Source: Verrucomicrobiia bacterium (GTDB lineage Bacteria > Verrucomicrobiota > Verrucomicrobiia > Verrucomicrobiales > DEV007). Taken from it: a DNA stretch of 64,000 nt. The notes below the pieces were generated by a model, which did no database searches, had not been told where the DNA came from, and saw only the letters and a program-made list of their open reading frames with translations. The stretch covers positions 1 to 64,000 of the forward strand of contig JAUIAH010000041.1 of the NCBI GenBank assembly GCA_030425385.1. The letters are read 5' to 3'. The first letter of the stretch is position 1. Each line of letters starts with the position of its first letter. Both the position numbers and the translations under genes were made by a program. Shown here piece after piece: positions 39,874 to 46,743 of the stretch.

Positions 39874-40691
39874 ATGTCAGCTTCTCATTCAGCAACCACT
39901 ATCTCGGTGATCGCCGCCGAACTCAAGAAGGCGCGCCGCCGCCTAATCATCACTGGCGCGGGCATTTCGACTGACTCCGGTCTTCCGACCTACCGAGGTA
40001 TCGGTGGATTGTATCAGGGCGGGCCACAGAGGACGGCATGCCGATCGAAGAAGCCCTCAGCAGCACGATGCTGCGAGATCGCCCTGAAGTCACTTGGAAG
40101 TATCTATGGGAGATCGCTGAGAAATGCCGGACCACTTTACCGAACCGATGCCATGAGATTCTCACCAACTGGCAAAAGCACACGCCTAATACGTGGATCC
40201 TCACTCAGAATGTCGATGGTCTTCACACCAAAGCAGGTAGCCAGAAAGTCATCGAGATCCACGGTCGTGCCGCCACTCTACGGTGCGTTCATTGTCCATT
40301 TCACACAGACGGCAACCGCTTCCTCCACGACGAAAGACGCTATCACTCTCCTCACGTTCCGAAGTGCCCAGATTGTGGCCACGTTCTCCGGCCCGATGTT
40401 GTACTCTTTGGAGAAGACCTTCCGAGACGAGCGCTGAAGGCTCTGGAACAGCTCGCAGAGGACGGGGTCGACTTGGTGATGAGCATAGGAACATCGAGCC
40501 TCTTTCCCTATATCACCGCGCCCATGCAACTGGCTCACGCGGCAGGAATCCCCACCGTCGAAATCAATTTGGAGGAAACCGAGGCGACACCGTTTGCCCG
40601 GCACATCCTCCGTATGCCCTGCACGGAGGCGCTAGAGTCCCTCACCAACAACGCAAACTTCATTCTACCCAATCATGCCGACAATGATTAA
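39874..40691 (+). pseudogene. NAD-dependent deacylase (sirtuin) with a frameshift
   Basis: The 5' frame has the NAD site 'LIITGAGISTDSGLPTYRGIGGLYQGG'. The 3' part continues in another frame from about 40020: 'TEDGMPIEEALS', 'ILTQNVDGLHTKAGSQKVIEIHG' (catalytic His), zinc site 'RCVHCPF' and 'KCPDCGH', 'RPDVVLFGEDLP' and 'VMSIGTSS'. Between 'YQG' and 'ATEDG' one base seems missing (about 40017-40026). With the shift repaired the protein would be about 272 residues and complete. Either the gene is inactivated, or this is a sequencing or assembly error. It lies 24 bases after the Nudix regulator, same strand. Confidence 0.8.
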
Positions 40692-42105: not shown

Positions 42106-42720
42106 GTGAGTACCGCTTTGAACAGGCAAGTGCTTGTGCTCAACCGGTTGTGGCAACCGGTCAATCTTTGCTCGGCGCGTCGCGCCATCACCTTGGTCTT
42201 TCTGGGGCATGCACAGGTGGTTGGGACGGATGCTGAGGATCAGTATTTTACTCACGATCTCGACTCCTGGATCCAACATTCATCCTCGTCTCGATCCGAG
42301 CGTGCGGTCATCCGATCCATCACTCAGTGCTTTCGCATTCCCGAAATCATCGTTCTCGCCATGTTTGACCGCCTGCCAAAGAAGCAGGTCAAGTTCTCCC
42401 GGGAGAACATCTATCGTCGTGATCGCTATGCCTGTCAGTACTGTGGCGAGAACTTTGAACCCAAGGACTTGAATCTTGATCATGTGGTTCCTCGCGATAA
42501 AGGCGGACGCACCACGTGGGAGAATGTGGTGGCCTCCTGCATCCCATGCAACACTCGGAAGGCCAACAAACTGCCTCAAGAAGCCAAGATGTTCCCGCAG
42601 CGCGACCCGAGGCCGCCCTCTTGGCGGCCCCTCTTCAGCACGACCGAGAGACCCTTGCCCTGTGATAGTTGGGGACAGTTCATCGATCTGAAAGAAAGTG
42701 AGGTCCTTCTCACCGAATGA
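42106..42720 (+). CDS. HNH endonuclease family protein
   Basis: 204 residues. N-terminal region 'VLVLNRLWQPVNLCSARRAITLVFLGHAQVVG' is found in a family of bacterial HNH proteins. The HNH domain is at about 105-155: 'RRDRYACQYCGENF', 'LNLDHVVPRDKGGRTTWENVVASCIPCNTRKANKLP', with two CxxC pairs for zinc and the DH..N..H catalytic set. Start GTG 42106, chosen because the conserved N-terminus begins there. The stop overlaps the next gene by 4 bases (ATGA). Function of this family is not settled; it is not obviously linked to a methylase. Confidence 0.88.
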   Translation: MSTALNRQVLVLNRLWQPVNLCSARRAITLVFLGHAQVVGTDAEDQYFTHDLDSWIQHSSSSRSERAVIRSITQCFRIPEIIVLAMFDRLPKKQVKFSRENIYRRDRYACQYCGENFEPKDLNLDHVVPRDKGGRTTWENVVASCIPCNTRKANKLPQEAKMFPQRDPRPPSWRPLFSTTERPLPCDSWGQFIDLKESEVLLTE

Positions 42721-43301
42721 TCGAATCCTTCAACCGCCTGCAGGCTGCGAAGACCGTGGGCGCACTCCTGTTAGGGACAGCCACGGCGGCCATCACCCTG
42801 ACATTCTTCTACTGGACAGCACTCGTTGTCCTCTCCGGCATGGGTGCTGTGAACCGGCAATTGGCTGCATGGACCTGCGCTCTTCTCGCTCTTGGCCTGG
42901 TGATGGTGGTAGGGTTGATGCGAGGGACTCAAGGACGCGGTCACTACAACTACGCAGAGTCAGGCTTGATGCCTGGCTTTGATGAATCCACGGCCAGTGG
43001 ATTCGTGGCAAACCGGAAGACGATGCGCCTGACGGCACCGGCCTACCTCTTGGGCCAGCTGTTTCTCGCATCCCCTTTGCAATTCCTCCAAGCCAAACGC
43101 CACTGGGAGCGTCGCCTTCCCGACGAGCATGGACTCGAATCGAACCTCCACGCTCTCCTCACAGAGATCGAATCCGTTGGCAAATGGCACGACGCGCAAA
43201 CTTATGACACACGTATGCGCGAGTTGCTCTTTCTCGTCCGTCTAGGAAGAGTCGAATTCAGCCCTCGCAAAGGGCGGGTACGCTTTGCGGCGAGATCCTA
43301 A
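42717..43301 (+). CDS. Membrane protein coupled to the HNH gene
   Basis: 194 residues with two adjacent N-terminal membrane helices (ALLLGTATAAITLTFFYWTALVVLS; LAAWTCALLALGLVMVVGLM), then a possible weak one (YLLGQLFLASPLQFLQ) and a charged cytosolic C-terminal region. No family recognised. The 4-base overlap with the HNH gene suggests the two are translated together. Confidence 0.75.
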   Translation: MIESFNRLQAAKTVGALLLGTATAAITLTFFYWTALVVLSGMGAVNRQLAAWTCALLALGLVMVVGLMRGTQGRGHYNYAESGLMPGFDESTASGFVANRKTMRLTAPAYLLGQLFLASPLQFLQAKRHWERRLPDEHGLESNLHALLTEIESVGKWHDAQTYDTRMRELLFLVRLGRVEFSPRKGRVRFAARS

Positions 43302-43312
43302 CACCTAGCCAT

Positions 43313-44782
43313 CTAGGCGCCTACTTCCTTCCACCCGCGGACGAACGCTTTCTCAGAGAACTGGTTCCAGAATTGCTCGATCTGTTCCTTGCTTTGTGAC
43401 ACACGGATGTCGCGATCGAGCGGCGATTTCCGATTGGGACTGAAGTCCGTGAAGTGAAGCACATAAGCGGGATGAATCTCGGACTGGTCTTCCTTATTCG
43501 TCTTCCACAGAAGCAACTTGCGCACCATCGTATTCCCCTTGAGCTCTTTGGTGTAGACGACGCGTTTGACCAGTTCTGATGGGGGTAGCTGAAGGTCTTG
43601 GAGGGTTTTCTCAGTGCCCTCGATCTCAACGATGGCGGTCAATTGCGGCACCCCGGTGTGCTCGGGTGACGCCTCTTTATCCTCACGGAAACGCAAGAAC
43701 TCAGGGGAGAGGATGCTAGCAAGTGGAAGCCGACGCTCCGTCAGCCATTTCCCTTCATTCTCATCCCAACGAATGACCATGCGATTGATCGATCCCCCGC
43801 GCGTGGTTTCCGATATCACATCCAAACAAGAGATTTCGACCACTTTGTCAGGACGAATCATCTGGTAAGCCACACGATCCGAGTTGACCTCCGCGTAATC
43901 ACTGGGGACAGCGAGATCTTTCAAATCCGAGAGGAAATCACGCCGTTGATCTTCGGTGAAGCCTCCCCCCACCCGCCCCATGATCTGAAAAGCGCCATCT
44001 TTCCGTACCAAGGCTAACAGAATATCGTGCAGCATCCCACTCCGATCATCGATCCCTTCTGCGAACCCCACGGCCACGGCATCAATGGTGTGGCGAGGCT
44101 TCACCTTGAAGATGCCTGCCGCATCACTCCGTGCGACGATGCCCTCGGCACCCTCCTCATCGACCCAGGTCTCGAACTGCTCCAGGATCGCCTTGGTTTT
44201 GTCGAGCGTGACGGTCTCGACCGGATGAATCAGCTTCCCCTCTGCGAACGTTTCCTTGAGACAGGTCCAGGTGTCTTTGTAAGACGGGAAGTCATCCTCA
44301 CCATCCCACATGATTCGATCAAAGACCGCAAATTTGAGCGTCTGCAAGGTCTTGGCGGATTCTGGGTTGCGCGCCACGCGCGAGACATCATGGACCCGCG
44401 GCCGTTTGCCGTCCGCGCGATCGACGTAGAGTTCGCCTGCTAAGAGGGTGGTCTTCTTGCAGCCGGCGGCTTTGAGTAAGGCAGCCGCTTCCGCCATGAA
44501 GGGCAGTCCGACGCGCACGGTTCCTCCAGGATTGATGGTGACCACCTTGCCTTCATCATAGATGAGCATGGTGAACTCGCCATCAATCTTGCGACTGACA
44601 TGGTAGTCCTGATTCGGTATGCGATGCTCCAACCCATCACGGTCTAACGGAATCATACGCGCACTGGCCGTGCGGCGGTAGTTCTGCGCATATCCCAGCC
44701 ATTGTGGGTTCGGTAGAGCCGTGGAAGAACCCGTGGCGTAGTCGCCGATCTTGATCTGCAATTGAGAATGGTCGATTTGCAT
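43313..44782 (-). CDS. ATP-dependent DNA ligase-like nucleotidyltransferase
   Basis: 489 residues. The catalytic Lys motif I is 'SRKIDGEF' (Lys about residue 65, K-x-D-G). Further ligase motifs: 'LLAGELYVDR' (motif III area), 'FAVFDRIMWDG', 'EEGAEGIVAR' (motif IV) and 'FKVKPRHTIDAVAVGF' (motif V). A C-terminal OB-like region is expected at about 250-360, and the last about 120 residues ('VYTKELKGNTMVRKLLLWKTNKED' to the end) are an extra domain I do not recognise. No Ku or polymerase partner is nearby, so this is not a standard LigD system. It lies 3 bases after the next gene's stop in the same transcript. Confidence 0.85.
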   Translation of the reverse strand: MQIDHSQLQIKIGDYATGSSTALPNPQWLGYAQNYRRTASARMIPLDRDGLEHRIPNQDYHVSRKIDGEFTMLIYDEGKVVTINPGGTVRVGLPFMAEAAALLKAAGCKKTTLLAGELYVDRADGKRPRVHDVSRVARNPESAKTLQTLKFAVFDRIMWDGEDDFPSYKDTWTCLKETFAEGKLIHPVETVTLDKTKAILEQFETWVDEEGAEGIVARSDAAGIFKVKPRHTIDAVAVGFAEGIDDRSGMLHDILLALVRKDGAFQIMGRVGGGFTEDQRRDFLSDLKDLAVPSDYAEVNSDRVAYQMIRPDKVVEISCLDVISETTRGGSINRMVIRWDENEGKWLTERRLPLASILSPEFLRFREDKEASPEHTGVPQLTAIVEIEGTEKTLQDLQLPPSELVKRVVYTKELKGNTMVRKLLLWKTNKEDQSEIHPAYVLHFTDFSPNRKSPLDRDIRVSQSKEQIEQFWNQFSEKAFVRGWKEVGA

Positions 44783-44785
44783 CCG

Positions 44786-45496
44786 CTAGTCTTCCTGCTG
44801 AGGTTCAGGCTGTTTCAGTTCCATATTCGAGAGATGGAGGATCAATGCGTAGCGTTCCCCATCCACCCTCCCTTCCAGAAAGCCGCGATAGGGAGTGCCA
44901 CTACGACGAAAGACCAGGGGTTGATTCCCCTTGGGACCTCCGGCGATGAGCAACAAGCTATTCTTATCCGCCAACTCTTTGGCCATCCCGTAGAGGAAAT
45001 CATACGTGAGGCCGTTGTGATGAATGATTTGAAGTTTGTGAGAGAAGACGAACCGGTTATAGACTTTATCCCGTGGCATCATCTTGCCGGTCCAAGTGAG
45101 TGGGATTTCCGTCGCCACGTTCGGCTCCACCATCTTCCGGGGTCGTCGCTCTTTCTCCTCGCCCTCGGGATCTCTTACAATTTCCCAATGGACCACACGA
45201 TGGACGATTTCGTTGTCCTGATCCATGTAGACGCGGGAAGCCTCTTCTAAGAACGTCCCATAGCTTTCCAGATCGACCTCCGGATCACCATCGATGAGCG
45301 CCTGCCCCACTTTGTTAAGTTCTCCAAACTGCGCTTCCAGCGCTTCAATGTCGCGATCGAGCGTTCCTTTGAGGATCTTTCGATTCACGACCTGACGCTT
45401 CTCGGCGTCAATCCAGCGCACTTTCAGTGGCTGCGAGACACTCTCCGCCACGACGGTTGCATCCCGGTTCTTGCTATTAGTGAGGTTGATTTCCAT
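44786..45496 (-). CDS. Unknown protein in the ligase cassette, middle gene
   Basis: 236 residues, soluble, no signal peptide. N-terminal coil region 'LDRDIEALEAQFGELNKVGQAL' then a mixed alpha/beta body with 'KMMPRDKVYNRFVFSHKLQIIHHNGLTYDFLYGMAKELADKNSLLLIAGGPKGNQPLVFRRSGTPYRGFLEGRV'. The last part may be an oligonucleotide-binding-like fold. I do not recognise the family. Stop to ligase start spacing is 3 bases, so co-translation is likely. Confidence 0.75.
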   Translation of the reverse strand: MEINLTNSKNRDATVVAESVSQPLKVRWIDAEKRQVVNRKILKGTLDRDIEALEAQFGELNKVGQALIDGDPEVDLESYGTFLEEASRVYMDQDNEIVHRVVHWEIVRDPEGEEKERRPRKMVEPNVATEIPLTWTGKMMPRDKVYNRFVFSHKLQIIHHNGLTYDFLYGMAKELADKNSLLLIAGGPKGNQPLVFRRSGTPYRGFLEGRVDGERYALILHLSNMELKQPEPQQED

Positions 45497-45511
45497 CGCT
45501 TAGTAACCTTT

Positions 45512-46135
45512 CTACATCAGGCCAAAGTCCATGAGATCCACTTCCCCGTCATCCGATCCCTCGTCTTCAGAGGGAATGGCGCTGCCAGATTCTGACAAGC
45601 CTACCATAGCAATAGACGTGGGTTTCCCTAACGCCAGCCACAACGCTCCATCCTGGCCTTGGAATAGGAATCCCTCATCGGGATCCAAGCCGCCGCGGTA
45701 ACTGAAGGGGAAATGGAAGATTGTTCCCTTCTCTAACGCTTTCACGAGCTTCTTTGAGAATCCTTCAGGCGCTTCCAGCGTGTAGACGGCCCGCACATTA
45801 TGCGAAAGATAGTCTTCGACCGTCACCTCTTCCGTCAACGCGATGGGCGCTTTGAAACTCGAGCCCACGGGATTCACAGGTTCATTCTCCAAATCCACGG
45901 CCTGGAGTGCTTTCTTATCACACCAGTGCCCATCGGGATCGAAGTAAGCGAAGGTGGTGCCACCGCTGCCGATCAGCGTGCGGCCATCAGAAGCCAGGGT
46001 CACGAGGCTGCACGGGTTCCCATTCTCATCCACGACCTCCTTCTCGACGTAGCCGTAGAGTTTGGAACGTTCGACTTTCGATAAATGACAGGCGGATTCC
46101 TCGCCTGCAAACTGGAAGATCAAGGGGGTCGCCAT
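45512..46135 (-). CDS. Unknown protein in the ligase cassette, first gene
   Basis: 207 residues from ATG 46135 ('MATPLIFQFAGEESACHLSKVERSKLYGYVEKE'); the longer frame to 46243 has no support. The body is beta-rich ('SLVTLASDGRTLIGSGGTTFAYFDPDG', 'GLDPDEGFLFQGQDGALWLALG') and the C-terminus is acidic (SEDEGSDDGEVDLMDFG), a tail such as proteins use to bind DNA- or RNA-associated partners. Family unknown. It begins the three-gene run ending with the ligase. Confidence 0.75.
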   Translation of the reverse strand: MATPLIFQFAGEESACHLSKVERSKLYGYVEKEVVDENGNPCSLVTLASDGRTLIGSGGTTFAYFDPDGHWCDKKALQAVDLENEPVNPVGSSFKAPIALTEEVTVEDYLSHNVRAVYTLEAPEGFSKKLVKALEKGTIFHFPFSYRGGLDPDEGFLFQGQDGALWLALGKPTSIAMVGLSESGSAIPSEDEGSDDGEVDLMDFGLM

Positions 46136-46266: not shown

Positions 46267-46743
46267 ATGTCTGAACAGCTTTTAAGGGATCCCTTCTATG
46301 GTCAACTCGTCGCCTCGATCGCCGTGACCACGGCTCTATCTGATCGGCAGGCGGAGAGCGAAGCTGGAGTGCGTTTCACTGACTCACAGGTGAAGGCGGT
46401 CTTTCATCGCGTGATCAAGACGCTGGAGGGCAAGCCCCCGAAAGCGAAGGCACCCACCTCTGAGAAAGAACGGCGCCAGCACCAGCTCTACGACGACCTC
46501 ATCGCCTTGCGTCCCACCATCCTCATCACCAACCGCGAAACGGAAGAGCAGAGTCCGCTCCCCGTGCCCATGTTTCTCCGAGCCATGCGCGCTGCCAAAG
46601 AGTCGCTCATTCGCAATCACATCCCCGAGCCAGGCTCGCGTGCCTTTCTGGAAAGGGCCCATCGCACCCTAGCTGATGTGGAAGCCACGAAAGAAGGAAA
46701 CGAAGAAGCGGCTTCAGATGAAGCCGCTTCGGAGAAAGCATAG
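46267..46743 (+). CDS. Unknown protein with acidic Ala-rich tail
   Basis: 158 residues from ATG 46267. Helical; 'GQLVASIAVTTALSDRQAESEAGVRFTDSQVKAVFHRVIKTLEG' and 'LERAHRTLADVEATKEGNEEAASDEAASEKA' with a charged tail. No family recognised. Convergent with rpsD; divergent from the ligase cassette across about 130 bases. Confidence 0.65.
   Translation: MSEQLLRDPFYGQLVASIAVTTALSDRQAESEAGVRFTDSQVKAVFHRVIKTLEGKPPKAKAPTSEKERRQHQLYDDLIALRPTILITNRETEEQSPLPVPMFLRAMRAAKESLIRNHIPEPGSRAFLERAHRTLADVEATKEGNEEAASDEAASEKA

Follow-up and report, generated by a model that had tools for sequence, protein, structure and literature searches.

Bacterial non-homologous end joining (NHEJ) was described in 2025 as the work of one Ku homodimer plus LigD, and the disordered C-terminal region of bacterial Ku is reportedly involved in the interaction with LigD (both in the excerpted text of PMC12784961). 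Excerpts of two other papers present prokaryotic NHEJ as Ku with LigD, encoded in many species by separate co-operonic genes (PMC4538821, PMC8656161). The mycobacterial ligase LigC and the polymerase Prim-PolC, together with ExoIII homologues, are treated in the accessible portion of PMC5663958 as an established excision repair set. The present analysis concerns a window of 64,000 nucleotides (the whole stretch of DNA analysed) from a Verrucomicrobiia bacterium, part of contig C60 of a genome of 8.0 Mb (G000). Three of its open reading frames (ORFs), labelled A, B and C, form a cassette that encodes an ATP-dependent DNA ligase (C) and two proteins with predicted Ku-like folds (A and B). Since a ligase and two predicted Ku folds are found in neighbouring genes, the cassette is probably an overlooked DNA break-repair system. 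We think it likely that it represents an alternative bacterial NHEJ system, in which a two-part Ku-like end-binder works with a dedicated ligase and with AEP-HAD, a fusion of an AEP primase-polymerase and a HAD phosphatase. We lean slightly towards a bolder proposal, namely that A and B make up an obligate Ku heterodimer from a separate ancient bacterial lineage invisible to sequence models, serving a second, independent end-joining pathway.

Like bacterial Ku-LigD, the proposed system combines as a set a Ku-fold component, an ATP-dependent ligase, an AEP polymerase and a phosphatase, with the ligase linked to Ku-type genes. However, the cassette has two distinct Ku-fold genes where Ku-LigD has one homodimeric Ku, A and B fall outside the Ku Pfam model, the ligase, polymerase and phosphatase are not fused as they are in LigD, a HAD phosphatase is used where LigD uses PE, and the ligase has an extra C-terminal domain. 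Sinorhizobium possesses multiple Ku genes. The tail of A is acidic, whereas that of the canonical Ku of relatives is lysine-rich. Two different Ku-fold subunits with a dedicated ligase recall eukaryotic Ku70/Ku80 and Ligase IV, and the likeness may extend to a heterodimer; A and B are, however, too short to hold the vWA domains of Ku70/Ku80. Searches of open-licence PMC papers, judged by titles and abstract starts and without preprints, listed no description of the cassette or of such a bacterial two-subunit Ku, which is weak evidence of novelty.

The cassette and its ligase

The features of the cassette are as follows.

45512..46135, minus strand: gene A, 207 aa, predicted Ku-fold subunit that ends in an acidic tail (predicted structure)
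44786..45496, minus strand: gene B, predicted Ku-fold subunit, 236 aa (predicted structure)
43313..44782, minus strand: gene C, ATP-dependent DNA ligase with nucleotidyltransferase and OB domains, 489 aa (Pfam and NCBIfam matches, motifs)
45515..45586, minus strand: acidic disordered tail of A, ending ...DLMDFGLM (model confidence, conserved residues)
43316..43675, minus strand: C-terminal domain of C, roughly residues 370-489 (stretches KELKGxxMVRKLLLWKTNKE and TDFSPNRKxPLxREIRVS conserved)

Transcription runs A-B-C, with gaps of 15 bases between A and B and 3 bases between B and C, exactly as the initial annotation had described them; purine-rich, ribosome-binding-like stretches are seen by eye upstream of B and of C. 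A scan of genome contigs with B alone returned 302 relatives; the best 80 supply all the locus counts given here, and five of them (L028, L032, L035, L049 and L095) are apparently contigs of genomes that had already been found. Of the 80 loci, 71 have A, in 69 of which it lies on the same strand within 300 bases upstream of B; of the 74 loci that offer at least 700 bases upstream of B, 69 have A. C is present in 77 loci, and in 73 of the 75 with at least 1.5 kb downstream, its ORF starting no more than 300 bases from the end of B in 66 of the 80. The order A-B-C on one strand is kept in 67 of the 68 loci that hold all three genes. A is missing in nine loci and C in three, the sequence being too short to hold the gene in four and one of these, respectively; A is divergent in L104, and other ORFs stand between B and C in L029, L072, L082, L088 and L097. 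Because the order recurs in many bacteria, the arrangement is not due to chance. The initial annotation had proposed that the three genes form a unit, naming beforehand a ligase found mostly alone, or partners unlinked, as the outcome that would count against it, and the unit withstood this test, with exceptions: in G024 (89% complete) the ligase is present and A and B were not found, and in G021 A is on another contig. In G013, A is about 1 kb from B.

C matches PF04679 (DNA_ligase_A_C) with 39 bits, above the cut-off of 27.5, and PF01068 (DNA_ligase_A_M) with 25.2 bits, just below the cut-off of 26.2. The NCBIfam ligase models match it as well, none near its cut-off; for the models of NHEJ/LigD ligases the scores are 36.3 vs. 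373.2 bits (TIGR02776) and 48.5 vs. 227.75 bits (TIGR02779). In an alignment of 46 sequences out of 74 available, K65, D67, G68, R90, E117, F154, E213, K226 and K228 of C are invariant, which bears out the earlier claim that this ligase-like enzyme has all the nucleotidyltransferase motifs. Together with an OB domain, these residues, which we take to represent motifs I, III, IIIa, IV and V, give C the features of an ATP-dependent DNA ligase, and Lys65 is predicted to be the adenylation residue. A search of the PDB with the C profile finds archaeal DNA ligases at 5e-21 and then Lig1 and Lig4 (4.8e-12 at best for Lig4), and every chain matched at E 0.001 is named a DNA ligase. The C-terminal part of about 120 residues, previously called unrecognised, indeed has no family match in Pfam and NCBIfam scans; a WGR-like reading of it amounts to no more than an impression. 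On its sequence, C is taken as a distinct family of ATP-dependent DNA ligases with a conserved C-terminal domain.

Predicted folds of A and B

AlphaFold2 models were built for A from 65 sequences and for B from 56, with a predicted local distance difference test score (pLDDT) of 80.6 and 77.4, respectively. The A model consists mainly of strands plus a disordered acidic tail and the B model is mixed alpha/beta, in agreement with the initial annotation, which had one beta-rich partner with an acidic tail and one mixed alpha/beta partner. In both models the elements follow one order: two strands and an insertion come first, then beta-alpha-beta-alpha-beta-beta-beta. Foldseek gave 695 PDB matches for A and 611 for B at E ≤10. 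For A, all of the best 50 of 695 come from Ku-containing entries, with the best E of 1.2e-5 for B. subtilis Ku; for B, all of the best 50 of 611 come from Ku or Ku-containing entries, with the best E of 1.4e-5. We infer from the entries that the chain matched within the Ku-containing complexes is Ku. With VIA-align, the A model reaches Z 10.7 to M. tuberculosis Ku, and the B model Z 12.5 to 9cq6_b and Z 12.1 to M. tuberculosis Ku (2.6 Å over 110 residues). Conserved stretches of B include HINGLTYDFL, YRGFLEGR and LHLSNxELK.

Several results weigh against kinship with Ku. The Ku family model PF02735 has no match to A or B at E 1, and in hhalign comparisons with six Ku sequences from relatives A and B do not exceed 0.14%. 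Trimmed profiles show no clear gain over column shuffles, the score being reached by 7 to 72 of 100 shuffles, and a profile comparison of A with B gives no match either. The root-mean-square deviation from Ku at full length is large (for A, 7.1 Å over 173 residues), and A is acidic overall (isoelectric point 4.8 without the tail), which is unusual for a DNA binder. The insertion after the second strand, which in Ku is presumably the location of the DNA-encircling arch, stands at the arch place in both proteins and has low pLDDT in both. On the same side are the SPOC and Integrator INTS13/14 barrels, next after Ku in VIA-align: for B, SPOC comes within 1 Z unit of Ku and so ties with it (11.5 vs. 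12.5), and for A it scores 8.8 vs. 10.7. More generally, neither A nor B has a Pfam, NCBIfam or PADLOC match at E 1, and their profiles find in the PDB one weak, unrelated match each. Sequence methods are silent on Ku kinship, so the identification is structural and contextual, and A and B may be regarded as Ku-like from their predicted folds and gene context.

The barrel that SPOC and Ku have in common, along with the tie for B, leads to the reading of A and B as bacterial SPOC-type adaptors, that is, peptide-binding scaffolds for a ligase-polymerase complex that do not encircle DNA. We regard this as distinctly unlikely: the best 50 Foldseek matches listed for each model come without exception from Ku-containing entries, and the alignments to bacterial Ku take in more residues (159-175 for A, 110-165 for B) than those to SPOC (101-104 and 108-113). 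The presence of an insertion at the arch place in both proteins and a gene context of break repair also speak for Ku.

Residues 184-202 of A have pLDDT under 50. Yet this disordered tail is strongly conserved: all 71 homologues have F at position -4 and end in L, M, I or V, and 66 of the 71 have D at -5. Among the last 16 residues, acidic ones number 7.6 on average and basic ones 0.04. Such conservation within a disordered tail points to a docking peptide. An SSB-like (single-stranded DNA-binding protein) reading of A, which came from the acidic tail, was dropped because the A model matched Ku.

Partner enzymes and the proposed repair pathway

The commonest family flanking the cassette is AEP-HAD, found no more than two ORFs away in 34 of the 80 loci; in 30 of these it directly adjoins a cassette gene, and in the rest it lies within two ORFs. 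Its gene is fragmentary in L074 and cut by the contig end in L055 and L098. The three homologues scanned all match AEP-TOTE (PF22548), with 32.2, 35.3 and 28.2 bits, above the cut-off of 27. In G000 itself, AEP-HAD is encoded on a contig other than that of the cassette (C35:259812-260981, profile match 3.4e-151); it scores 32.7 bits against PF22548 and has 15 of 15 checked residues intact. The DxD, GxH and HAD residues, whose roles we assume, are invariant in 22 aligned sequences. The AEP half resembles AEP-TOTE and CRISPR-associated Prim-Pol, its profile finding PDB entries 7nqf and 7nqd, named TPR-region proteins in the PDB and, as we take it, CRISPR-associated Prim-Pol. It differs from them in being fused to a HAD phosphatase and in co-occurring with ligase and Ku-fold genes. 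The initial annotation had noted no Ku, polymerase or primase neighbours; that holds for the window by annotation, but A and B have Ku-like predicted folds and an AEP stands beside 34 of the 80 cassettes and elsewhere in G000. A gene for a very lysine-rich protein is convergent to the AEP-HAD gene in the genome of the window (L128:5668-6570, plus strand).

Among 57 related genomes, AEP-HAD is present in exactly the five that carry A (G000, G003, G011, G013 and G021), with a Fisher value of 2.4e-7 that is not corrected for kinship. In all five, it is on a contig other than that of the cassette, some of the contigs being short, which limits the estimate of distance. Other samples count against AEP-HAD as an obligatory component. 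Of 31 genomes that carry C or B (10 further genomes and 21 from the 80 loci, three of which already had AEP beside the cassette), 16 have a match, including one weak HAD-only match and one in pieces, and a profile search did not find it in Pseudobacteroides cellulosolvens. In a draw of 294 genomes from the phylum of G340, a metagenome-assembled genome of Pirellulaceae, three of the seven B-bearing genomes match both AEP and HAD (G340, G347 and G351). All the genomes of this draw with both matches are B carriers, and four genomes lacking B match one part only; the draw is not fully independent because it was centred on G340 and because G347 and G351 had been recognised as carriers beforehand.

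A second partner, an ExoIII-like (EEP) nuclease, follows C in 17 of the 80 loci (in one with an intervening ORF), 14 of which have AEP-HAD too, and it occurs in some proteobacteria. An alignment of 12 sequences shows invariant N, E, D, N and SDH residues, and both of the two proteins scanned out of 17 match Exo_endo_phos. This partner would suit excision repair too, which is a further point against end joining. It suggests a gap-repair or base-excision system similar to mycobacterial LigC and Prim-PolC, in which AEP would fill short gaps, the HAD and ExoIII-like enzymes would clean 3′ ends, C would seal nicks, and A and B would be a clamp or an adaptor for DNA with nicks or gaps instead of binding double-strand breaks. 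The precedent of LigC and Prim-PolC with ExoIII homologues, as given in the part of PMC5663958 cited above, favours such a system, and the likeness includes a ligase and an AEP that are encoded separately and act as a set, with ExoIII-type enzymes involved. However, the cassette has Ku-fold partners, a different ligase family with an extra domain, and HAD fused to AEP. Both partner proteins being predicted to fold like Ku, and no glycosylase being seen by eye in the neighbour clusters listed (which were not scanned with family models), we consider excision repair unlikely.

Operons with a ligase, HAD and EEP for the repair of cleaved RNA have been described, and the cassette with its partners might be read as an RNA repair module of this kind. 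One of the three AEP-HAD proteins scanned has a weak match, 0.0042 and below the cut-off, to HAD_SAK_2, an RNA-repair HAD. This reading appears extremely improbable, given that C is DNA-ligase-like with an OB domain and finds DNA ligases only among its PDB matches at E 0.001, and that Ku-type partners bind DNA ends.

End joining is the reading that we prefer. A and B would form a Ku-like, probably heterodimeric clamp on the ends of DNA double-strand breaks, and the acidic DFxM tail of A would recruit a partner enzyme, as the C-terminal region does in other bacterial Ku. AEP-HAD, in the many genomes that have it (G000 included), would fill gaps and clean blocked ends, doing the job of the LigD POL and PE domains; ligase C would seal the break, and the ExoIII-like nuclease would be an addition in some proteobacteria. 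The genome G000, which is 95.5% complete, gave no match to canonical Ku (PF02735) or to LigD_N. Across 33 genomes with C or B, PF02735 is matched in two and LigD_N in eight (six over the cut-off); across the 57 relatives, PF02735 is matched in seven, none among the five with A, an overlap too small to prove exclusion.

Distribution, surroundings and significance

According to record titles, carriers belong to Verrucomicrobia, Planctomycetaceae, Pirellulaceae, Acidobacteria, Myxococcales and Anaerolineae; further carriers are Granulosicoccaceae (Gammaproteobacteria), Neomegalonema (Alphaproteobacteria), Oscillatoria and Hormoscilla (Cyanobacteriota) and, in Bacillota, the culture-collection strain P. 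cellulosolvens ATCC 35603 (L101). The 57 related genomes hold C in eight cases, B in seven and A in five. A draw of 288 genomes from the phylum of the window has B in three and C in four, G000 included, and the draw of 294 mentioned above has B in seven. The closest carrier found is G003, of the same genus as G000. Two loci from other families of the phylum of the window (L019 and L020) have A, B and C in the same order, the B gene of L020 having an internal stop. Upstream of the cassette, both have a double-AAA+ ATPase gene (L019:4977-7307 and L020:3887-6304), and a MoxR-like ATPase gene and a DUF2201 metallopeptidase/vWA gene are also neighbours in L020; a DUF932-like reading of the gene after the L019 cassette was without Pfam support. 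In G056 (L015), a diverged ligase gene has an internal stop and B is in two pieces, so that this cassette is either decaying or affected by assembly errors.

Such scattered occurrence (C in 8 of the 57 relatives; B, in a different phylum, in 7 of the 294 genomes), together with the match of AEP to Pfam's TOTE conflict-system AEP, would suit an anti-phage defence module. We find this highly improbable, since PADLOC models give no match to A, B or C at E 1, no recurrent defence genes are seen by eye among the neighbour clusters listed, and ribosomal-protein-like genes, the upstream ORFs that we take to be rpsD, rpsK and rpsM, are near the cassette. Viral-contig scans with C and B (A was not tried) and plasmid scans with A and B gave no relatives. 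C finds six plasmid records, matching over 19-42% of its length at less than 60% identity; the annotation of five of them is ligase or LigD, and the sixth has none. A mobile-element reading of the cassette was rejected on these scans. The initial annotation had proposed a nucleic-acid repair, end-processing or defence module: repair and end processing remain the best reading, with the genes co-occurring, while the defence option is not sustained.

B is at least 360 aa long in 11 of the 80 loci. Six of the seven longer proteins scanned have a SAM domain, and the seventh (L075) has only a weak histone-H1-like match. In Granulosicoccaceae (L081:9992-11299, L058:9992-11545, L056, L067, L084 and L103), B has a long linker and a C-terminal SAM domain, which suggests polymer formation.

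In the window, a small divergent gene of no family (46267-46743, plus strand) is matched by one in the same position in G003 (L009) and could share a promoter region with the cassette. On the other side, the convergent HNH nuclease pair of the initial annotation turned out to include one HNH protein (42106-42720, plus strand), its convergent orientation being as stated; the partner (42717-43301) has no HNH match. The two genes overlap (42106-43301, plus strand), and the second protein, of no family, is hydrophobic near its start as judged by eye. The HNH part of the first has sub-cut-off matches to IscB and Cas9d models. In G003, an acyltransferase/acetyltransferase gene follows the ligase where the window has these two genes. 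A coding region which we assign to a Sir2-like (sirtuin) family from its motifs appears split over two frames (39874-40691, plus strand), the N-terminal motif lying in ORF 39874 and the rest in ORF 40038; this would be a broken gene or a sequencing error.

The lead can be tested, as the genes are small and one locus is in the culture-collection strain P. cellulosolvens ATCC 35603. If the end-joining reading is true, it would change the count of bacteria able to join ends without a template and could yield new compact end-joining tools. It would also provide a bacterial comparison for Ku70/80, with a two-subunit logic present across many phyla.

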